DNA of 34,029 nt. It comes from a virus. The DNA lies in IMG/VR virus record IMGVR_UViG_3300046004_001054, positions 1-34,029 of that record; one strand, 5' to 3'. Below the pieces are notes generated by a model. It ran no database searches. It saw only the letters and a list, made by a program, of their open reading frames with translations, and was not told the DNA's origin. Shown one piece after another: positions 2,921 through 34,029 of the stretch (position 1 is its first letter; every line of letters begins with the position of its first letter). Both the position numbers and the translations under genes were made by a program.

Positions 2921-3397
2921 ATGGAAAATCTAATTAAAGAAGTTTTAGCATCTGAAAGCACTAAAAACCAATGGCGCAATAAATACGATTCAATTGAATT
3001 TAAGAACGCTACAAAGTTAAATAAAGCACTATTTGGAATACATTTAAATCAATCCGTGGGCTGTCAATGTGTCGAAGATTTGTTTTTTTACATCAAACGA
3101 AAAAATAATTTTATGAATAAATTTAAGTTAAAAAAAGGATTAGTTGTAACGTCTTTTTTACACGCAACAATTACAGAACATTCAACGGATGCGGAATTTA
3201 TGCAAGCGTTAAAGGTTTCTCCGGCTTCAATTAAATACTTTACTGAATATCCTGAAAATTGGAAGGACATTGTAAATGGTAAAGAGATTTTACCGAGTGC
3301 AAAAGAAATGCGTGAACAACTCAAAGAAAAAGGAGTAACAATTCCAAAAGGTACAAAACAACCTGAACTTATCAAATTATGGCAAGAGTCAAAATAA
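2921..3397 (+). CDS. Unassigned protein with C-terminal HeH/SAP-like motif
   Basis: A 158-aa protein between the terminator at 2917 and the portal gene, which it overlaps by 19 bases. The N-terminal two-thirds has no recognised fold; it has a Cys-x-Cys (residues 48-50) followed by an aromatic patch. The last 30 residues, around MREQLKEKGVTIPKGTK, resemble the small helix-extended-loop-helix (HeH/SAP-like) module that often caps phage head and connector proteins and can bind nucleic acid. The module reading comes from pattern memory only. Its place before the portal suggests a head-related role. Confidence 0.6.
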   Translation: MENLIKEVLASESTKNQWRNKYDSIEFKNATKLNKALFGIHLNQSVGCQCVEDLFFYIKRKNNFMNKFKLKKGLVVTSFLHATITEHSTDAEFMQALKVSPASIKYFTEYPENWKDIVNGKEILPSAKEMREQLKEKGVTIPKGTKQPELIKLWQESK

Positions 3398-8090: not shown

Positions 8091-8327
8091 ATGAAAATAT
8101 CCCACCAACAAGCACGAAAAGAAGTAACCTTGTTCTATATTCAACAAGGGTATTCAAGCCTCTTAAAAGCGTGCGAAACGGCACAAATTAGCTATTCTTC
8201 AATATACAAGCAATTGAACGGAATCAACGCTTTAAAATTGTATTCAATTAAGGAATTGATTGAAAAGCTTAATGAGAAATACACAGCAAAGGAGATTGAC
8301 GGAAAATTAATAATTGTAAGGAGATGA
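8091..8327 (+). CDS. Small helix-turn-helix-like protein
   Basis: A 78-aa protein with a helical N-terminal half around SLLKACETAQISYSSIYKQL, which has the spacing of a helix-turn-helix, and a C-terminal half ending in a beta-like IDGKLIIVRR. The layout closely resembles the 84-aa product at 18379-18633 (same Cys, Tyr, Leu and final basic pattern), so the two may be distant members of one family of phage DNA-binding proteins. It is coupled to the next gene by an ATGA overlap. The target site is unknown. Confidence 0.6.
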   Translation: MKISHQQARKEVTLFYIQQGYSSLLKACETAQISYSSIYKQLNGINALKLYSIKELIEKLNEKYTAKEIDGKLIIVRR

Positions 8328-11597: not shown

Positions 11598-11833
11598 GTA
11601 ACGAAAGACACCTAAAAGAAACGATCCAACGACAAGCGGATACGATCAAAGAATTAGAAGCCGATTACAATGACGAATTTGTAAAAGGGCAAATGAAAAC
11701 AGCCGAAATCGGAATACTAAGAGACCAACTCAAAACACTTCAAAACATTCAAAACTACTTAGAAGACCGATTGAAAGACAATGAGGAGTTTCAGCAAGTG
11801 ATTAGAGATTTGGAAGGAGGTAACGAATGTTAG
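11594..11833 (+). CDS. Small coiled-coil protein
   Basis: A 79-aa, almost wholly helical protein with heptads from residue 5 to 70, many Gln, Glu, Lys and Leu, and a Gly-Gly-Asn tail. It begins in an ATGA overlap with a membrane-anchored coiled coil and overlaps the next gene by 7 bases. Pairing with the upstream product is a reasonable guess; no specific function is evident. Confidence 0.6.
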   Translation: MSNERHLKETIQRQADTIKELEADYNDEFVKGQMKTAEIGILRDQLKTLQNIQNYLEDRLKDNEEFQQVIRDLEGGNEC

Positions 11834-12033
11834 TAAATTTAGATTTATTAAGAACCTCAAAGGAGGTCGCTACTATGCTGAAATGTTCAGTTCGTAACGT
11901 TTCACACCTTGTTAAAGCTGAAAAGCTAAAACCTATTAAAGTACTTGAGAATGAAACTTTTTTGTTTCACGTAAAAGATATTGATAATTTTTTAGCTAAT
12001 TATAAAATCCAAAAAAGAAAACCAAGCAAATGA
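11827..12033 (+). CDS. Excisionase-like helix-turn-helix protein
   Basis: A 68-aa protein whose first 45 residues (LLRTSKEVATMLKCSVRNVSHLVKAEKL) match the winged helix-turn-helix pattern of the MerR/excisionase type: a helix starting after Thr-Ser-Lys-Glu-Val-Ala, a turn, and a recognition helix with basic residues. A short wing (KPIKVLENETFLFHVKDI) follows, then a Lys/Arg-rich tail. It probably binds DNA as a local regulator. No integrase is present, so excision is unlikely to be its role. Confidence 0.72.
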   Translation: MLVNLDLLRTSKEVATMLKCSVRNVSHLVKAEKLKPIKVLENETFLFHVKDIDNFLANYKIQKRKPSK

Positions 12034-15949: not shown

Positions 15950-15992
15950 TTACAATTTAATAGTAGATATATGTAATTAAATTGTAAATTTG
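15950..15992 (+). promoter_or_regulatory. Twin-operator promoter of the helicase-methyltransferase gene
   Basis: A perfect inverted repeat, TTACAATTTAAT (15950-15961) and ATTAAATTGTAA (15976-15987), surrounds 14 bases. Read as 13-bp boxes on the pattern ACAATTwwATTGT, these are at 15952-15964 (one mismatch) and 15973-15985 (two mismatches), 21 bp apart. The second box abuts the -7 element TAAATTTG (15985-15992). There is no TTTG at -33, so activation or very weak basal expression is likely. The same arrangement recurs at 18633. Confidence 0.75.
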
Positions 15993-16014
15993 CACAAACG
16001 AAATAAAAACAAAT

Positions 16015-18198
16015 ATGAAAGATTACAACAAATTTTTAGAAACAAAACGAAAGTCATTTATTGATAGTGGCTTTGAAATTGACGAAAGCAAATTGAATAA
16101 AAACCTATTCGATTTTCAAAGGTTCGCGGTAAAAACAGCATTAAGAAAAGGAAAATTCGCATTATTTTTTGATTGTGGATTAGGCAAAACATTAATGCAA
16201 TTATCATGGAGTGAAGCCGTATTTAATGAAACAAAAAAGAAAGTTTTAGTTTTAGCACCTTTGGCGGTTGTTGAACAAACAAAAGAAGAAGCGGTAAAAT
16301 TTGGAATTAACTCCGATTGTTTCGATATTACAAATTACGATCAACTTAAAAATGTTGACGTTTCAATTTATTCTGGAGTTGTTTTAGATGAAAGTTCAAT
16401 ACTTAAAGGTAAAGACGGTAAAACGTCTGATTTGATTATTCAATCATTTAAATCAACACCTTATAAACTAGCTTGTACTGCAACACCGTCACCAAACGAC
16501 CATATGGAGTTGGGTCAACATTCGGAATTTTTAGGCGCTATGGGGTATTTAGAAATGTTAGCTATGTACTTTGTTCACGACGGAGGAGAAACAAGTAAAT
16601 GGAGATTGAGAAAACACGCAAAAGACCCGTTCTGGAAATACGTTTGCACATGGTCAATGGCTTGTGATAATCCAAATACACTTGGATTCTGTCATAAAGG
16701 ATATAATTTGCCCGAAATTGAATACATTGAGCATATTATTCAAGTTGATAATAACACTGATAATCTTTTTGGTGACGTTGCCGTAAGTGCCACCGATTTA
16801 CACAAAGATTTAAACCGTTCATTTGATTTGCGAATTGAAAAAACAAAGGAACTAATCGAAAAATCAAAAGGTCAAGTTATTGTTTGGGGTTTAAAAAATA
16901 GCGAAACTGATACACTTGCAAAAATAATTGATAATTCAGTAAATGTTCAAGGATCTGATAAACCCGAATACAAAGCAAAACACCTTAATGGATTTGCAAA
17001 AAATGAGTTTAAAACTTTGATTACAAAAACTTCAATTGCATCTTTCGGTATGAATTACCAAAATTGTAATGAAATGATTTTTATGTCTTACGATTTCAAG
17101 TTTGAACAATTTTATCAAGCAGTAAGGCGTTGCTATCGTTTCGGTCAAAAAAATAAAGTAACGGTGCATATTTTGATTCCTGAAAGTCAAGTTAATGTAC
17201 GTGCCACTATTTTAGAAAAACAAAAAAGACACTTGGAAATGATACAAGAAATGAGTAAATATTCAAGTGAAGCGGATTATAAATCTTCAAAATCAAAAGT
17301 AATGATTAACAATAAAGAAATCAAAACAAACGATTATCATTTATTAAATGGTGATTGCGTTCAAGAAAGTAAAAAATTAGCGGATAAAAGCGCAGATTTA
17401 ATTGTTTTCAGTCCTCCATTTGCTGAGTTATATGTTTATTCAGATAAAGAAGAAGACATGGGAAATGTAGCTAATTACAAGCAATTTGAAGAGCATTTTA
17501 AATTTCTTATTCCTGAGTTGAAAAGAGTTCTTAAAAATGGTAGAATTTGCGCTATTCATTGCATGGATTTACCTATCCAAAAAGGAAAAGAGGGATATAT
17601 TGGTTTGAGAGATTTTAGCGGAATGTTAATAGATTGGTTTCAAGAAAATGGATTTATTTATCATTCAAGAGTTACTATTTGGAAAAACCCCGTAACTGAA
17701 ATGCAAAGAACAAAGGCATTAGGATTACTTCATAAAACTATTAAAAAAGATAGTTCAATGACTAGAGTGGGTATTCCTGATTACGTTCTGTTTTTTAGAA
17801 ATGAGGGAGAAAATGAAACACCGATAACGCATCAAGATACTGATTCAAGTAAAAAAGATTTTTTACCAGTTGATTTGTGGCAAAAATATGCAAGTCCAGT
17901 TTGGTATGATATTGATTATTCAAGAACACTTCAATATCGTTCTGGACGTGACGGTAACGATGAAAAGCATATTTGCCCTTTACAATTAGATACGATTGAA
18001 AGAGTAATACATTTGTATTCAAACGAGGGAGAAACGGTATTTAGTCCATTTGGAGGTATTGGAAGCGAGGGTTTTTGTGCTTTGAAAATGAATAGAAAAT
18101 CTATATCAATTGAATTAAAAGATTCTTACTTCGCTTTAAATGCCAAAAATCACAAAGATTGTATTGAAGAAAAAAATAGCATTTTAACACTATTATAA
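16015..18198 (+). CDS. Helicase-methyltransferase fusion protein
   Basis: A 727-aa protein with two enzymes. Residues 30-400 form a superfamily 2 (SNF2/DEAD-like) helicase: Walker A GLGKT (55-59), Walker B-like DESS (125-128), TAT (155-157), and a C-terminal motif VI around QAVRRCYRFGQ (368-378). Residues about 435-720 form a beta-class amino-methyltransferase with motif IV SPPF (466-469) preceding the SAM site SPFGGIGSEG (677-686), the order seen in N4-cytosine and N6-adenine enzymes. The first residue of motif IV is Ser rather than Asp, which fits N4-cytosine enzymes. The fusion could open DNA and methylate it during replication, or shield DNA from restriction. No partner restriction gene is found nearby. 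Confidence 0.88.
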   Translation: MKDYNKFLETKRKSFIDSGFEIDESKLNKNLFDFQRFAVKTALRKGKFALFFDCGLGKTLMQLSWSEAVFNETKKKVLVLAPLAVVEQTKEEAVKFGINSDCFDITNYDQLKNVDVSIYSGVVLDESSILKGKDGKTSDLIIQSFKSTPYKLACTATPSPNDHMELGQHSEFLGAMGYLEMLAMYFVHDGGETSKWRLRKHAKDPFWKYVCTWSMACDNPNTLGFCHKGYNLPEIEYIEHIIQVDNNTDNLFGDVAVSATDLHKDLNRSFDLRIEKTKELIEKSKGQVIVWGLKNSETDTLAKIIDNSVNVQGSDKPEYKAKHLNGFAKNEFKTLITKTSIASFGMNYQNCNEMIFMSYDFKFEQFYQAVRRCYRFGQKNKVTVHILIPESQVNVRATILEKQKRHLEMIQEMSKYSSEADYKSSKSKVMINNKEIKTNDYHLLNGDCVQESKKLADKSADLIVFSPPFAELYVYSDKEEDMGNVANYKQFEEHFKFLIPELKRVLKNGRICAIHCMDLPIQKGKEGYIGLRDFSGMLIDWFQENGFIYHSRVTIWKNPVTEMQRTKALGLLHKTIKKDSSMTRVGIPDYVLFFRNEGENETPITHQDTDSSKKDFLPVDLWQKYASPVWYDIDYSRTLQYRSGRDGNDEKHICPLQLDTIERVIHLYSNEGETVFSPFGGIGSEGFCALKMNRKSISIELKDSYFALNAKNHKDCIEEKNSILTLL

Positions 18199-18199
18199 A

Positions 18200-18382
18200 A
18201 TGAAAAAATACGCAATACCACCAATAACAACCCCTGAATTTAGTAAGGGGTTTGAATACGAATTATTAAGTCAAGATGAAGAACGATTTTCAATTCGTAA
18301 CAATCAAGGACTTCTAACAATTTGCTACTACAAAAACAGTATGCACATTAAGAATATGGACTGGAAAATTATCGAAAAATGA
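18200..18382 (+). CDS. Small protein of unknown function
   Basis: A 60-aa protein one base after the helicase-methyltransferase stop. It begins MKKYAIPPITTPEFSKG and has alternating strands (ERFSIRNNQGLLTICYY, MHIKNMDWKIIE), as in a small beta-barrel. The start of the next gene overlaps its stop by ATGA. It may act with one of these neighbours, since the whole set is read from the operator-controlled promoter. Confidence 0.55.
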   Translation: MKKYAIPPITTPEFSKGFEYELLSQDEERFSIRNNQGLLTICYYKNSMHIKNMDWKIIEK

Positions 18383-18633
18383 AAATAGAAAACCACCGCC
18401 AAAAAAGAGCAAAGCAAATGATAGATTCCATTCTAGCAGATAAAGGAACGAAATTAAAACCGTTTTGTGAATCGAAAGGGCTAAACTACTTAGCAACCTA
18501 TCAAAAGCTATTCAGAAATAAACAAGTAGAATTAAGCAAGTTAAACGCATTTATCAAACTTATAGATGCTAATTTGAGCCTAGAAATCACTGAAAAAACA
18601 ATCGTTTGGAAACGAAAACAATTAAAAAATTAA
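18379..18633 (+). CDS. Small helix-turn-helix-like protein, possible operator-binding regulator
   Basis: An 84-aa basic protein with a helical N-terminus (residues 1-28), a middle FCESKGLNYLATYQKLFRN segment resembling a helix-turn-helix, and a C-terminal pair of strands ending TIVWKRKQ. Its layout parallels the 78-aa product at 8091. Its stop codon touches the twin operator at 18633, and it is read from the matching operator-promoter at 15950, so it is the nearest candidate for the protein that binds those boxes. That link is inference from location; it has not been shown to bind. Confidence 0.58.
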   Translation: MKIENHRQKRAKQMIDSILADKGTKLKPFCESKGLNYLATYQKLFRNKQVELSKLNAFIKLIDANLSLEITEKTIVWKRKQLKN

Positions 18634-18673
18634 CAATTAAATTGTATTTATTTACAATTATATTGTATATTTG
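18633..18673 (+). promoter_or_regulatory. Twin-operator promoter of the recombination genes
   Basis: Two 13-bp palindromes, ACAATTAAATTGT (18633-18645) and ACAATTATATTGT (18654-18666), lie 21 bp apart. The second abuts the -7 box TATATTTG (18666-18673). From the second box through TTTGCAC the sequence matches the promoter at 15985 except at a few positions. The ATG of the annealase candidate is at 18699. The two boxes fall on one face of DNA, as expected for two bound dimers. Confidence 0.82.
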
Positions 18674-18698
18674 CACGTAACAATTTTAATAAATCAAT

Positions 18699-19607
18699 AT
18701 GGAAAATCAAGTAACAATTATCGGAAACGATAATGTAGCAGTAAGCTACAATCAAGACAGAGCGAACATTGATTCGCAAGTAGCAACGGCAAAAGCATAC
18801 CCTAGAGATATGCAAAAGTCAGTAAATAACTCAATATTCATTGCTACAATGGATAAAGAAACGGCATCAAGTTGCACGTATTCAGTTCCGAGAGGTGGTA
18901 AACCAATTACTGGACCAAGTGTTAACCTTGCTCGAATTTTGGTACAATGTTGGGGAAATTTGAGAGCCGAAACAAAAGTAATTGACATTACAGATAAGCA
19001 CGTTGTAAGTCAAGCTACTTGTTGGGATATTGAAAACAACGTAGCTGTAAAAGTTGAGGTAAGACGTTCAATTATGACTAAAAACGGTAGAATGTCAGAC
19101 GATATGATAACCGTAACAGGAAACGCAGGAAATGCAATTGCTTATAGAAATGCGGTTTACGCTGTACTTCCGAAATCTGTAATTGACAAAGTTTATAAAT
19201 CCGCTATGGGTTTACTTACTGGCGATATTTCAGACGAAACAAAATTGATAAAGCAACGAAATAAAGTAGTTGAAGGATTGAAAAAAGCGTACGGAGTTAC
19301 GGACGAGGAAATTTTATTTTGCGTTGGTAAATCGAAACTCGAATACATTGGAGCTGATGAAATTGTAGTTTTAATCGGAGTGGGAACGGCTATCAAAGAC
19401 GGTGACACAACAATTGAAGAAGCATTTAGACCAACTAAAAAAGGAGTTGCTACTCCTAAAATCCAAGAAAAGGAAAAATTAAGCGATGCCGATTTATTAG
19501 ACGTAATTGCGGAAATCGTGGCGGACAACATCACTTTAGATGGTATTATGTCGCAATACGAATTAACGGACGAACAAATTAAAACCATTCAAGATGCGAC
19601 AGTTTAG
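18699..19607 (+). CDS. Single-strand annealing recombinase candidate
   Basis: A 302-aa protein in the first position of the recombination operon. It lacks walker motifs and is mostly mixed alpha/beta, with a conserved core GPSVNLARILVQCWGNL at about residues 70-86 and a GNAGNAIAYRNAVY stretch near 146-160. The following gene is a PD-(D/E)XK exonuclease, the usual partner of RecT/Sak-type annealing proteins, and a RusA resolvase comes next. The role is therefore inferred from gene order plus fold impression. The product ends in a helical C-terminal unit rich in Asp and Ile. Confidence 0.68.
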   Translation: MENQVTIIGNDNVAVSYNQDRANIDSQVATAKAYPRDMQKSVNNSIFIATMDKETASSCTYSVPRGGKPITGPSVNLARILVQCWGNLRAETKVIDITDKHVVSQATCWDIENNVAVKVEVRRSIMTKNGRMSDDMITVTGNAGNAIAYRNAVYAVLPKSVIDKVYKSAMGLLTGDISDETKLIKQRNKVVEGLKKAYGVTDEEILFCVGKSKLEYIGADEIVVLIGVGTAIKDGDTTIEEAFRPTKKGVATPKIQEKEKLSDADLLDVIAEIVADNITLDGIMSQYELTDEQIKTIQDATV

Positions 19608-20424
19608 ATGTTCAAGTATTGGGAAGTTAACGGTGGGGATGTCATTGTCCCCACTTGGTTTAACTGAAATTCAAGCGCGCGAATTAGCGGAGTTAATCGA
19701 GAAAGGTAGTAAGTCTAAAAAGATTCAAGAATTAACCGACAAACGCGACAAAGTTCCAAATTTAAAACTTTCTACAGGTGCAAAAACCTACATTGAAGAT
19801 GTTTGGTATGGTGACTATTACGACTTTCAAAAGTCATTTCATAACAAATTTGTCGAAAAAGGAAAAGTAATTGAAGATGCGAGCATCAAAGCACTTTCAA
19901 AGTATTTAGGTTTTATCACAATCAAAAACGAGGAGTATTTAAAAAATGATTGGATTCACGGAACGCCCGACATTCGTTTAAACCGTCCTAAATGCACCAT
20001 TGACACAAAGAATGTTTACTATCCAAATGGTTTAAATTATTTCAAGGACAGCGAAGAAAAATCACTTTATGAGTGGCAAATCCACGCTTACAATTTTCTT
20101 GATAATAAAGAGGTCGGATTTGTCGCGCGCATCTTAATGAATCCACCGTTAAACATTCTTGAAAAAGAAGTTTGGAACTATTGGAAAGATAGCGGTAACG
20201 ACGGACACCCAGACGACAACTTTAGAAATGAAGTTGAGCAAATGTTTAATTTTGAACGTTTACCGATTGAAGACCGAGTAAACTTGTTTCGAGTTGACAC
20301 TACTGAAGATAATATTAAGATTATCAAAAAAGCGGTCGAACTTGCAAATGAGTACTACAATGAATTAACTGAAAGGTTTAAATTTAGAAATTCAGATGTA
20401 ATTGGTTATTTCAAAAATAAATGA
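19594..20424 (+). CDS. PD-(D/E)XK recombination exonuclease
   Basis: A 276-aa nuclease of the lambda-exonuclease/YqaJ type that would trim one strand of double-stranded DNA for annealing. The N-terminus RCSSIGKL is typical of such phage nucleases. Active-site residues visible are Glu94 (in KGKVIEDAS), Asp126 (in GTPD), Asp137 and Lys139 (IDTKN), with Gln162 in a WQIHAY helix. Size and motif order agree with the family. Its start overlaps the annealase candidate by 14 bases and its stop overlaps the resolvase start by 4, so these three are coupled. Confidence 0.87.
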   Translation: MRQFRCSSIGKLTVGMSLSPLGLTEIQARELAELIEKGSKSKKIQELTDKRDKVPNLKLSTGAKTYIEDVWYGDYYDFQKSFHNKFVEKGKVIEDASIKALSKYLGFITIKNEEYLKNDWIHGTPDIRLNRPKCTIDTKNVYYPNGLNYFKDSEEKSLYEWQIHAYNFLDNKEVGFVARILMNPPLNILEKEVWNYWKDSGNDGHPDDNFRNEVEQMFNFERLPIEDRVNLFRVDTTEDNIKIIKKAVELANEYYNELTERFKFRNSDVIGYFKNK

Positions 20425-20741
20425 GTTTTGAGGTAAATCTAAACGTTAAAGCGCTTTCAATTAATGAGTGTTTTCAAGGTAAAAGATTTAAAACAAAAGC
20501 TTATTTAAGCTACGAAAAAGTATTATTGTTAATGTTACCTAAGCGAGATTTAAAAGACGTTCAAAAGGTAAGTATTGAATTTGGTTTTAGTTCAAAATTA
20601 GCGGACATTGACAATCCTGTTAAACCAATTTTAGACATTTTACAAAAGAAATACGGTTTTAACGACCGAGATATTTTTGAGCTGAATATTAAAAAAGTAG
20701 TAGTGAAAAAAGGCGAAGAATTTATTAAAATTTCAATCTAA
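20421..20741 (+). CDS. RusA-like Holliday junction resolvase
   Basis: A 106-aa protein matching RusA-type endonucleases, which cut four-way DNA junctions symmetrically. The motif ADIDNPVKPILDIL (residues 61-74) holds Asp62, Asp64 and Lys68, and GFNDRDI (79-85) supplies Asp82 or Asp84; these match the metal-binding aspartates of RusA. It follows the exonuclease with an ATGA overlap and completes an annealase-exonuclease-resolvase set. Likely role: resolve recombination intermediates, possibly before packaging. Confidence 0.87.
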   Translation: MSFEVNLNVKALSINECFQGKRFKTKAYLSYEKVLLLMLPKRDLKDVQKVSIEFGFSSKLADIDNPVKPILDILQKKYGFNDRDIFELNIKKVVVKKGEEFIKISI

Positions 20742-21196: not shown

Positions 21197-21213
21197 TTTA
21201 TTTTGTATATTTG
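21184..21213 (+). promoter_or_regulatory. Promoter upstream of the replication-type genes
   Basis: TTTG (21184-21187), 18 bases, then TATATTTG (21206-21213), overlapping the end of the HNH gene. It shares TTGTATATTTGCA with the operator-type promoter at 18666 but lacks the palindromic boxes. Transcription should start near 21220. Confidence 0.78.
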
Positions 21214-21219
21214 CAAATG

Positions 21220-21331
21220 TGTTACGGTCTCAATTATAGGTAACAGAAGAAATTATTGAACCTCGATAATGAAAGTACGTGAGACCTACTGGATTTATTG
21301 GGGTTTTTTATTTACTAAAAAAAATAAAGGT
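21220..21331 (+). other. Structured leader or small RNA candidate
   Basis: The transcript from the promoter at 21184 would have an untranslated part of about 110 bases. TGTTAC (21220-21225) can pair with GTAACA (21240-21245). GGTCTCA (21226-21232) lies in that hairpin's loop but can pair with TGAGACC (21280-21286) in a longer stem that would enclose one arm of the first. ATTAT (21252-21256) pairs with ATAAT (21266-21270) within it. Competing pairings suggest either a switch or chance. No standard terminator follows. Confidence 0.42.
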
Positions 21332-21523
21332 ATGATTTACAAATTTGAGGACAATTATTTAGATGATGATTGTATGGAAGTAAAGTTAGATTATAAATCA
21401 AAAGACTTGCTTATTACTTGTTTTACTGAAAAAAACGAAGCTTCAATTACATTAAGTAAACAAGATGTTAGGGATTTAATAGAAGCACTTAAAACAATTG
21501 AACCTAAAATGCCTTATGAGTAG
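21332..21523 (+). CDS. Small protein of unknown function
   Basis: A 63-aa acidic protein read from the ATG at 21332 (MIYKFEDNYLDDDC). An in-frame ATG at 21269 would give 84 residues but would lie inside the structured leader, where the added N-terminus is aromatic and unlike the rest. The sequence has a beta meander (LLITCFTEKNEASITLS) and a helix ending KTIEPK. It overlaps the next gene by 8 bases. Confidence 0.55.
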   Translation: MIYKFEDNYLDDDCMEVKLDYKSKDLLITCFTEKNEASITLSKQDVRDLIEALKTIEPKMPYE

Positions 21524-29409: not shown

Positions 29410-32181
29410 ATGGAAGACAAAACGATATTATTAAAAATTGAATTAGATACAACTTCGCTAACTGAGGGTGCTAAAAAAGCGGAAGAGAATTTAAAAAAAC
29501 TAGTTCCTGAATTAGAAAAAATTGGAAAGGAAAGCGGAAAAAACACGATCGAATATAAGAAGCTAAATGCTGAAGTAAAAGCTAATCAAAAGATTTTAAC
29601 GGATAATGCAACAGCCTTGCAAAAATATGAATCGTTGCAAAAACAAAACAATGGTTCACTTAAAGAAATGCGTAATCTTTTAAGTGCTGCTAAAGTTGCT
29701 TATGCTGAATTAACCAAAGAAGAGAGAGAGAATGCTGAAATAGGTGGTAAGTTGGTTAAGGATATGAATGACTTAAATGAGGAGTTGTTACAAGCTGAAA
29801 AAGAATACGGAACACACACCCGAAATGTAGGAAATTACGCTGGTGCATTGACTGATTTGAAAGCTGAAATCAAATCGTTAAAGGGCGAAATGGCTGGTTT
29901 AGATGCTGGGAGTGAGGAGTATCAAAAGTTAGCTAATCGGGCTGGTGAACTTAACGACAAACTAAAAGAAGTCAACGAAAACACCAAAGCGAATACTGGA
30001 GGCACTGGCTTTGAAAAAATGTCGAATAACTTAGGATTAGTTAAGGACGATTTAATGAATTTAGATTTTGCAGGAGTTTCTGAAAAAATGAAACAAATGG
30101 CAGTAATTTCTAAATCAATGACATTTAGCGAAGTTTTAGGTGGTTTAAAAAATATGGGTTCGGCTTTACTTTCTTTTGGTAAGGCGTTATTAGCAAATCC
30201 CTTGTTCTTATTAGTTGGTGCAATTACAGCAATAGGGGTTGCGTTGTTTGAATGGAATAACTCAGTCAAAAAAGAAGCCGTTGACGCACAAAAAAGGCAC
30301 GTTGATGCATTGGATAAAACATTCAATGCAATGTTGCGTAATCAAGAAATGGCGCAAAAGTCAAGAGATTTGAATATTCGTTTAGCAGAATTGGAAGGTA
30401 AAAGCGCAAAAGAAATTGGTGAAATGCGACTGAAAGACCAACTAAAGCAATTAAACGATGGATATGATCAACAGTATAAAAATTCAGAACGAATAAGACA
30501 GCTTAAAAAATTAGCACTTAAACAAGCAGAAGCTGGTGAACAAGATGAAGCAAAAGCAACACAAGATAAAGTGGTTGCAATTCGTGAAGCTAATCGACAA
30601 TTATACGCAAATGAACAAACATTTTGGAAGCAAAGAAAGATTTTAAAATTAGAAATTGCAGAACAAACAAAAGCGGAAGCGCAAGCGGAAATTGAAGAAA
30701 ACAAAGCAAAGTTAGAAAGAATAAAACAAGCTAATAAAACAGCTTATGAAGAACGTTTAGCACTCGCACGTAAAATTAGAGATATTCAATTAAATGAATT
30801 AAACCTATCACTTCAAAACGACCGGGCAGTAATTGAAGCTAACTATAATTTTTTAGAAGATTCAGCACAAGGAAACGCACAACACTTATTAGATATTGAA
30901 GAAGATAAAAATAAGGAGTTACAAGCGATTGACAACCGAGAAAGACAACAGCGATTAGACCGAATTAAAGAAGATTTCGACCGTCAAGTAACGGACGCAA
31001 AAGGAAATCAAAAACTAATAACTGAAATCAATAAACTTCGTGAAGAAGAAAACGAAGCTATTGATATTGAATATAAAAACAAGGCTACTGAAAGACAAAC
31101 AGCGTATAACAACAAGGTAAAAGAACTTAACAAAACACGTAAGGAAAACGAACGTAAAACAGCGGAGGAAATAGAGTTGATTGATGCGGAATTATTTGCA
31201 CTGAAAACAAAAGGAACTGACCAAGAAATCTATGCAACCCTTAATTTATATGCGATTAAGAAAAAGCAAATCGAAGAAGCTGGTAAACGTGAAATTGAAT
31301 TAACAAATGCAGTAGGTAAAGAAAAGGAGCGTATTGAAAAAGAAACGCAACTAAAATTACAACAGCTTAAAGATGCTACTTTTAACAAGTCGGTGGATCA
31401 AGCGAAGAAAGAAACTGAAATGACATTGGAGCAAAAGAAATCCCTTGCTATTTCAATGGTTAATTCAGCTACTCAATTAGCGGATTCATTAATGCAAATT
31501 TCACGTAATCAAATCCAAACAGAATTAAATGAAGAGAAAGATAAATTCGATGCACAAACTCAATTACTAAATGACCAATTAGCACAAGGTATAATTTCAC
31601 AAGCTAACTTTAACGCTCAAAAATCTGTTTTAGATGCTGAATATATCCAAAAAGAAAAGGATTTGAAGTTAAAACAATTCCAATCTAACAAAGCAAGTCA
31701 GTTAATTAATGCCACAATAGCAACAGCAGTAGGAGTTGCTAACGCCTTAGCCGCACCACCTCCAATTGGTTTGATTATGGCTGGAATTGCTGGTGCTTTA
31801 GGTGCTACTCAAATCGCTTTAATCGCATCACAACCTACACCGAAATTTGCAAAGGGTGGTATATTGAATGGAAACAGCCACGCTAACGGAGGTATTCCAA
31901 CACCTTACGGAGAATTAGAGGGTGGCGAGGCTGTAATTAACAAACGTTCAACACGTTTATTCACTCCTTTACTTTCAGCTATCAATGAAGCTGGAGGAGG
32001 CGTTAAATTTGCAAACGGTGGTGTTTTACAACCGATGGTTAATTCAGTTGATTCAAGTTTTCAGCTTTCAAATATGATTATTCAATCACTTAGAAGTATG
32101 CCAAATCCTATTGTTTCAGTTCAAGAAATTATCGGGGTACAAAATAGAGTAACCTCAGTTGTTGACCGTGCGACATTTTAA
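29410..32181 (+). CDS. Tail tape measure protein
   Basis: A 923-aa protein, the largest in the genome. Most of it is Lys/Glu/Ala/Gln-rich coiled coil. A hydrophobic segment occurs near residues 250-280 (LANPLFLLVGAITAIGVALF) and another near 770-805. The C-terminus has FAKGGILNG and GELEGGEAVINKRS, motifs common to tape measures of Gram-negative phages. If wholly helical it would set a tail of about 138 nm (1.5 Å per residue), an estimate only. It determines tail length and may help DNA entry. Confidence 0.9.
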   Translation: MEDKTILLKIELDTTSLTEGAKKAEENLKKLVPELEKIGKESGKNTIEYKKLNAEVKANQKILTDNATALQKYESLQKQNNGSLKEMRNLLSAAKVAYAELTKEERENAEIGGKLVKDMNDLNEELLQAEKEYGTHTRNVGNYAGALTDLKAEIKSLKGEMAGLDAGSEEYQKLANRAGELNDKLKEVNENTKANTGGTGFEKMSNNLGLVKDDLMNLDFAGVSEKMKQMAVISKSMTFSEVLGGLKNMGSALLSFGKALLANPLFLLVGAITAIGVALFEWNNSVKKEAVDAQKRHVDALDKTFNAMLRNQEMAQKSRDLNIRLAELEGKSAKEIGEMRLKDQLKQLNDGYDQQYKNSERIRQLKKLALKQAEAGEQDEAKATQDKVVAIREANRQLYANEQTFWKQRKILKLEIAEQTKAEAQAEIEENKAKLERIKQANKTAYEERLALARKIRDIQLNELNLSLQNDRAVIEANYNFLEDSAQGNAQHLLDIEEDKNKELQAIDNRERQQRLDRIKEDFDRQVTDAKGNQKLITEINKLREEENEAIDIEYKNKATERQTAYNNKVKELNKTRKENERKTAEEIELIDAELFALKTKGTDQEIYATLNLYAIKKKQIEEAGKREIELTNAVGKEKERIEKETQLKLQQLKDATFNKSVDQAKKETEMTLEQKKSLAISMVNSATQLADSLMQISRNQIQTELNEEKDKFDAQTQLLNDQLAQGIISQANFNAQKSVLDAEYIQKEKDLKLKQFQSNKASQLINATIATAVGVANALAAPPPIGLIMAGIAGALGATQIALIASQPTPKFAKGGILNGNSHANGGIPTPYGELEGGEAVINKRSTRLFTPLLSAINEAGGGVKFANGGVLQPMVNSVDSSFQLSNMIIQSLRSMPNPIVSVQEIIGVQNRVTSVVDRATF

Positions 32182-32190
32182 TTATCTTTG
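32162..32190 (+). promoter_or_regulatory. Promoter before the terminal small genes
   Basis: TTG (32162-32164), 18 bases, then TATCTTTG (32183-32190). Transcription would start within a few bases of the ATG at 32199, giving a nearly leaderless mRNA. The first part lies inside the tape measure gene. Confidence 0.62.
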
Positions 32191-32198
32191 ACAAGAAT

Positions 32199-32426
32199 AT
32201 GACAATAACAATAATCGACAAATTACACGATTCGGGGGAACTTCGCAACTTAGTTAGTTCGGGTTTGATTTCTGAAAATATTATTTTGTGGCGTAAAATT
32301 TGGCATTGTTACCATTCTGAAATTGATAAAGGACACGTAAAAACACAAGCGGTTGAAAACGTTTCAGAAGTGTTTGGAGTTGATACAAGAACTGTTTATA
32401 GAGTATTAAAACGAATGAGAAAATGA
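32199..32426 (+). CDS. Small helix-turn-helix protein
   Basis: A 75-aa basic protein with an apparent helix-turn-helix at about residues 45-72 (TQAVENVSEVFGVDTRTVYRVLKRMRK), in which VFGVDTRTVYR has the usual turn and recognition helix. It begins after the -7 box at 32183 and overlaps the next gene by 4 bases. It may regulate late or lytic genes or the two sugar-related genes that follow. No catalytic residues are expected. Confidence 0.68.
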   Translation: MTITIIDKLHDSGELRNLVSSGLISENIILWRKIWHCYHSEIDKGHVKTQAVENVSEVFGVDTRTVYRVLKRMRK

Positions 32427-33450: not shown

Positions 33451-33907
33451 CTAATTCACACCCTAATTGATTTAAGTCTTTTTTGAGTTGCTTAAAATCA
33501 TTTACGGCTTTGTCAAATGAATTACCTACAAAATGTTTATGCGTATTCATATCGACACCCCAAAGAATGATTTTTGTAGCACCTAATTTGTAAGCCAAAA
33601 CACAAGCGACAAAAGTAGAGTTGTTTGAATATCTGAATTTTTCATCTGTTAATTTTGCAAGGCGGTGCAATTCAATTTTTTTGAAGTTTTGAATATTACG
33701 CCAACATTCAAGTTGTGAGTAAAACCCTTTACATTTAGTATTTAAAATTACTTCTAATCGTTCTTTTGTGAAAGGCTCAAAATTATCCACACAAACTACA
33801 TAATCTGTTTTAATTCTCGAATGAATATCATTTACTCCGATGATTATATTTCCATTCGGTTTGTATTCTGAAAGTGATTCTCCTAATCCTAAAACTTCAA
33901 CTGTCAT
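33395..33907 (-). CDS. Rossmann-fold protein, possible sugar-related partner
   Basis: The only minus-strand gene. From the ATG at 33907 the product is 170 aa (MTVEVLGLGESLSEYK); an upstream ATG at 33934 would give 179 aa but would fall in the -7 box region. A GLGES loop (7-11) after the first strand, a VVCVDNFEP stretch and AYKLGATKIILWGVDM (105-120) fit a Rossmann-type fold akin to MptE-like or DUF115 proteins, several of which act in glycan pathways. It overlaps the glycosyltransferase-like gene tail to tail. Whether it works with that enzyme is inference. Confidence 0.65.
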   Translation of the reverse strand: MTVEVLGLGESLSEYKPNGNIIIGVNDIHSRIKTDYVVCVDNFEPFTKERLEVILNTKCKGFYSQLECWRNIQNFKKIELHRLAKLTDEKFRYSNNSTFVACVLAYKLGATKIILWGVDMNTHKHFVGNSFDKAVNDFKQLKKDLNQLGCELVIGSEASALYKILMTPNL

Positions 33908-34026
33908 AATCGTGTCAAACAAGTTAAGGAACAAAGATATAATTTTGTTTCAAATGATAGGAAAAATATTCATAACAGGACAAATTGGAAGCGATGAAAA
34001 CACAAAAGGTGTTGAGCTTATTGATG
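33901..34026. repeat. Terminal direct repeat, right copy
   Basis: Identical to bases 1-126, and holding a partial second copy of the protease gene start (ATG at 33954). The last three bases of the window (34027-34029, CTC) differ from the left copy (TAG), probably an edge artefact of assembly rather than real variation. Confidence 0.93.
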
Positions 34027-34029
34027 CTC

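Follow-up and report, generated by a model that had tools for sequence, protein, structure and literature searches.

The two promoters considered here each carry a pair of palindromic boxes directly ahead of the -7 element, which raises the question of whether a single DNA-binding protein controls both and, if so, in which direction. Both promoters lie in a stretch of 34,029 nt (the window), which was analysed at its full length and comprises an entire IMG/VR virus record. Bases 1-130 recur from ~33901 to the record end (33900-34029), and because of this recurrence the record seems to be a complete genome, either terminally redundant or an opened circle. Judging from its proteins, which match those of Flavobacterium and Cellulophaga phages, the window phage appears to be of the Flavobacterium type: its helicase-methyltransferase is 81% identical to that of Flavobacterium columnare phage FCV-3, and its terminase shows 72.5% identity to that of Cellulophaga phage phi10:1 and 59% to that of Flavobacterium phage 11b. 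Other loci are referred to by number (L001 and so on) where they need to be told apart.

The motif common to both promoters is best written ACAAT-N3-ATTGT. Promoter 1 contains box A1 (15952..15964, ACAATTTAATAGT), with one arm mismatch, and box A2 (15973..15985, GTAATTAAATTGT), with two, followed by the plus-strand -7 element TAAATTTG (15985..15992) and a predicted transcription start near 15997. Promoter 2 contains box B1 (18633..18645, ACAATTAAATTGT), a perfect dyad, and box B2 (18654..18666, ACAATTATATTGT), which has perfect 5-bp arms, followed by the plus-strand -7 element TATATTTG (18666..18673) and a predicted start near 18678. None of the four boxes is assigned a strand. At both promoters the boxes are spaced 21 bp apart, and the second box runs into the TAHHTTTG element by one base, its last base doubling as the opening T; CAC comes directly after this -7 element. 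Both -7 elements match this consensus and lie 22-25 nt before an ATG. The original prediction was borne out in the coordinates of the boxes, the distance between them and their register relative to the -7 element, and its description of two ACAATTwwATTGT-type pairs holds cleanly for the boxes at 18633/18654, whereas those at 15952/15973 depart from it by one and two mismatches. Put differently, the pair at promoter 2 matches the motif at 20/20 defined bases, with 5/5 arm pairs in each box, and the degenerate pair at promoter 1 matches at 17/20 and differs at 3/20. The right arm of box B1 also provides promoter 2 with a -33-type TTG, separated from the -7 element by 21 bp; at this position promoter 1 has TAG. 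The statement that neither promoter has a TTTG -33 at the standard spacing needs amending at promoter 2 by this TTG. An intrinsic terminator was rejected as an identity for the boxes, as the dyads are AT-rich and lack a T-run, and so were replication iterons, as there are two copies per site only and these are tied to the -7 box.

The gene calls that accompanied the boxes, a helicase-methyltransferase fusion, an annealase, an exonuclease and a resolvase, agree with the Pfam and PHROG matches. Promoter 1 would drive a SNF2/DEAD-type helicase fused to an N6/N4 DNA methyltransferase (16015..18198, 727 aa; Pfam N6_N4_Mtase and Helicase_C, phrog_16), a 60-aa ORF with no family match (18200..18382) and, as the last gene of the operon, an orphan protein of 84 aa (18379..18633), which is a candidate regulator. 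Promoter 2 would drive recT, encoding a RecT-like annealase (18699..19607; phrog_3657), exo, encoding an exonuclease (19594..20424; phrog_5715), and rusA, encoding a RusA-like resolvase (20421..20741; Pfam RusA 9.1e-5, phrog_140). All six genes are on the plus strand, and the stop codon of the 84-aa ORF overlaps the start of box B1 by a single base.

The concern raised with the original prediction, that such pairs are a coincidence of AT-rich DNA, is not borne out, as shuffles fail to reproduce either pair. Twin boxes at 21-bp spacing with up to three mismatches in total appeared in 0/150 dinucleotide shuffles of the whole window, and no shuffle contained a perfect pair, whichever spacing between 14 and 60 was allowed. 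Local dinucleotide shuffles of the promoter 1 region never reached the promoter 2 motif in register at ≤3/20 mismatches (0/100,000), and two perfect same-arm dyads arose anywhere in the promoter 2 region in 15 of 20,000 local shuffles. Taken singly, boxes with two mismatches or fewer are no more frequent in the window than expected (16 seen, 21 expected), and therefore the signal resides in the pairing and the register. Furthermore, when we scored 1,337 TAHHTTTG boxes from the window and 83 related loci for in-register mismatches to the motif, the best two were promoter 2 (0) and promoter 1 (3), followed by 4, 6, 6 and 7 onwards. These two promoters also have the most similar upstream regions among 2,850 pairs of window promoters, the record's terminal repeat aside. 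Motif, spacing and register together give good support to a regulatory site shared by the two promoters of the window phage.

What a protein bound there might do can be judged from the position of the boxes. In F. johnsoniae the -7 consensus is TAHHTTTG, transcription starts 4-5 nt after it and there is little trace of a -33 element; AT-rich motifs at -18 and -28 are a feature of Flavobacterium promoters (PMC6847099). On this start spacing the boxes are centred at -39 and -18 at both promoters and span ~-45 to -12, overlapping the polymerase footprint by position. Such a blocking position over the promoter core favours repression, and we infer that the box pairs are, on balance, probably operators of a single dimeric DNA-binding protein which represses both promoters. 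The near dyad would fill the spacer down to the -7 element (~-24 to -12) and the far dyad would lie at ~-45 to -33, both on one face of the DNA and two helical turns apart, and two bound dimers, probably cooperating, would exclude sigma-A RNA polymerase from the promoter. Were the 84-aa protein the repressor, the result would be a Cro-like shut-off, in which operon 1 would repress itself and the recombination operon once its product sufficed, and promoter 2, its operators being better matched, would shut first. Counting against this repressor model are the degenerate boxes of promoter 1, the lack of conservation described below and the AT-rich -18 and -28 motifs of Flavobacterium, which explain part of the second box (PMC6847099).

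For the putative repressor, the 84-aa protein is a possible but rather doubtful candidate. It has no credible Pfam match and no relatives in IMG/VR or among GenBank phages, and its best indication, a PHROG match of residues 21-45 to a helix-turn-helix (HTH) protein (phrog_32288), is sub-threshold at E 0.057. AlphaFold models built without an alignment had pLDDT values too low for use, 65.9 for this protein and 54.5 for a 78-aa protein encoded at 8091-8327, and a Foldseek search of the 84-aa model against the PDB returned noise only, with no fold at E ≤ 0.001. The 78-aa protein is no better supported as DNA-binding, and homology between the two was rejected as unsupported (phmmer E ~0.3). The window also encodes an HTH_17 protein at 11827-12033. 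In two related phages, small genes of unmistakable Cro/CI type (HTH_3) directly precede the helicase-methyltransferase, at L013:5796-5996 (E 2.6e-14) and L023:5804-6004 (E 4.5e-12), indicating that a regulator gene beside the helicase-methyltransferase is a recurrent arrangement. This makes a linked regulator in the window plausible without pointing to a particular protein. Elsewhere in the window, at 32173-32190, a weak single dyad, ACATTTTAATTAT, overlaps a -7-like TATCTTTG in a register unlike that of the twin boxes, and a small HTH-like ORF lies downstream of it at 32199-32426.

Alternatively, the boxes might be bound by a host regulator, either repressor or activator, which the phage borrows in order to time its early operons. 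The phage candidates are orphans without a supported HTH, as this would lead one to expect, but twin boxes adjoining a -7 element were found in none of 84,980 bacterial and archaeal genomes, and we regard a host regulator as unlikely. Exact twin boxes occurred at 14 loci in these genomes, in termite-gut Bacteroidales and Nostoc. Five of these were inspected and proved to consist of 21-bp units repeated in long tandem arrays, with different spacers, and therefore to be something other than the twin boxes. These arrays, in termite-gut Bacteroidales (L086, L087, L091 and L093) and Nostoc (L092), are intergenic and composed of palindromic units such as ACAATTGAATTGT plus 8 bp; their period of 21 bp, in unrelated bacteria, is that of the twin boxes.

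The original prediction had been made to depend on boxes being kept upstream of orthologous genes in related phages, and in this broader form it failed. Among 80 helicase-methyltransferase homologues of 78-88% identity, 79 had upstream sequence and none of these had twin boxes (0/79); no in-register boxes were present at the recT homologues of L001, L084 and L085 (0/3). The stretches read of the cultured phages FCV-3, 11b and phi10:1 had no twin boxes, their best in-register matches carrying 8-10/20 mismatches, and IMG/VR contained neither a further exact copy nor any match to a looser twin-box pattern with a -7 element. A protein scan of bacterial genomes for recT gave no match. The best in-register match outside the window, at 5880 in L024, before the helicase-methyltransferase of that locus, has 4/20 mismatches; given the tail of the mismatch distribution across the 1,337 promoters this is about chance level, and we did not take it as conservation. 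A twin box in L100 with three mismatches was rejected as a relative of the window boxes, there being no promoter linked to it. The predicted two-operon regulon is thus supported within this genome, by motif, spacing and register, but not as a conserved regulon, and it would seem to be private to the window phage or to unsampled close kin because homologues, cultured relatives and IMG/VR lack the boxes, in searches that may have left out records very close to the window.

This lack of conservation would also be expected if there were no regulator at all, the two promoters being related AT-rich promoters, one a diverged copy, and the dyads by-products of the AT-rich -18 and -28 motifs. Such upstream motifs are usual in Flavobacterium (PMC6847099), the upstream regions of the two promoters are alike overall (35/46 bases), and relatives commonly have TTG directly before TATATTTG. 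Nevertheless, each arm keeps a C and a G, which are foreign to AT-rich promoter motifs, and comparable in-register symmetry was seen at one of 1,335 other -7 boxes (L001, 9/10 arm pairs, in an unrelated sequence), so that we consider this explanation quite unlikely. Recruitment of an activator, which the original prediction had offered beside blocking of the polymerase, is very improbable: promoter 1 does lack a -33 TTG, but a clear -33 is usually absent from Flavobacterium promoters (PMC6847099) and its absence is therefore no evidence for an activator, promoter 2 has TTG at 21 bp, and a box which occupies the spacer as far as the -7 element lies where a protein would block polymerase, MerR-type activators excepted, of which there is no sign here.

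The upstream regions of many relatives contained a different feature, a leader of ~90-100 nt between the -7 box and the ATG of the helicase-methyltransferase. We described it as a terminator-like stem (S2) before a T-run, together with a further helix (S1) whose 3' arm is contained in the S2 loop and whose 5' arm lies upstream; this descriptor was written after examples had been seen upstream of helicase-methyltransferase homologues. Scanning ~849 kb returned 53 elements preceded by a -7 box at ≤30 nt, and in 51 cases an ATG also followed closely; two shuffled copies of the same sequence yielded 0 and 1. Clustering gave 38 groups, among which the S1 arm takes 34 different sequences and the S2 arm 38, indicating that the helices persist although their bases change. 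Judged partly by eye, many copies place the 5' arm of S1 in the loop of a small 5' hairpin and its 3' arm in the apical loop of S2, and the S1 pairing is accordingly drawn as a predicted kissing interaction (kissing loop or pseudoknot).

The leader elements lie mostly ahead of replication genes, although their prevalence is biased by the choice of loci through one gene. The gene downstream is the helicase-methyltransferase at 11 loci by the scan, and elsewhere it encodes DUF6291 and primosomal proteins, DnaD-like loaders, replisome organisers, primases and antirepressors. The window has its own plus-strand copy at 21206-21320 (RNA ~21214-21310, -7 box 21206-21213), with helices S1 GGTCTCA/TGAGACC and S2 GAACCTCGATAA/TTATTGGGGTTT, preceding an ATG at 21332 and a replication-type gene at 21498. 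The descriptor scan placed copies in relatives at L035:877, L037:5061, L024:5897, L080:247 and L007:2693 and 5900. Once the descriptor had been fixed, further copies were found in the cultured phages 11b (L102, 33643) and phi10:1 (L103, 10259), the latter without a consensus -7 box by scan, and, by blastn, in Tenacibaculum phage Gundel_1 (L104, ~3001-3125). The leader begins at ~33630 in 11b and occupies 33886-34010 in Gundel_1.

An Rfam search with the leader RNA gave no match and a literature search of open-licence papers found no description of it, and the leader looks more novel than the twin boxes. We tentatively suggest, as a possibility short of an expectation, that early and replication operons of Bacteroidota phages may be controlled by two interchangeable modules: twin DNA operators, as at the helicase-methyltransferase promoter of the window, or this Rfam-absent kissing-loop leader before the start codon, which would represent a new class of attenuator or antitermination element recognising shape and not sequence. 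If confirmed, the leader would be the more consequential lead of the two. The comparison also shows promoter control turning over fast in these phages: a gene ~78-88% identical among them has putative operators in the window phage, is preceded by an RNA leader in 11 or more relatives and is linked to a Cro-like gene in others.

To our knowledge, few repressor-operator systems have been described for Bacteroidota phages, and our literature search for those of Flavobacterium phages found none. A close comparison is OR/OL of lambda, at which Cro/CI-type repressors act on repeated operators, more than one per promoter. Like the Cro/CI systems (lambda OR/OL; PY54 Cro, PMC4488713), the window has short dyads as putative operators, which overlap the core promoter of early operons, one dyad motif being used at two promoters, and small putative regulator genes nearby. 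It differs from them in having no recognised repressor, no divergent promoter pair and no third operator, and in that the 3' end of the candidate gene falls within the putative operator of the operon that follows.

Both window promoters resemble the sigma-A (sigma-ABfr) promoters of Bacteroidota (PMC6847099, PMC9723704) in their consensus -7 TAHHTTTG and in their short leaders, ~18 and 21 nt if transcription starts 4-5 nt after the -7 element. They depart from ordinary ones in their twin 13-bp dyads two turns apart, as 2 of the 1,337 examined match the motif. An engineered precedent for regulating a sigma-ABfr promoter in Flavobacterium through flanking DNA operators is the LacI-controlled ompA promoter, which carries lacO3/lacO1, in F. 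johnsoniae (PMC6847099); that system is artificial and its operators flank the promoter, whereas the window boxes fill it. For work in Flavobacterium, a clean twin operator of 34 bp at such a sigma-ABfr promoter would offer a natural switch fit for use. Set against these known systems, the putative twin operators are ordinary in kind and new in detail.
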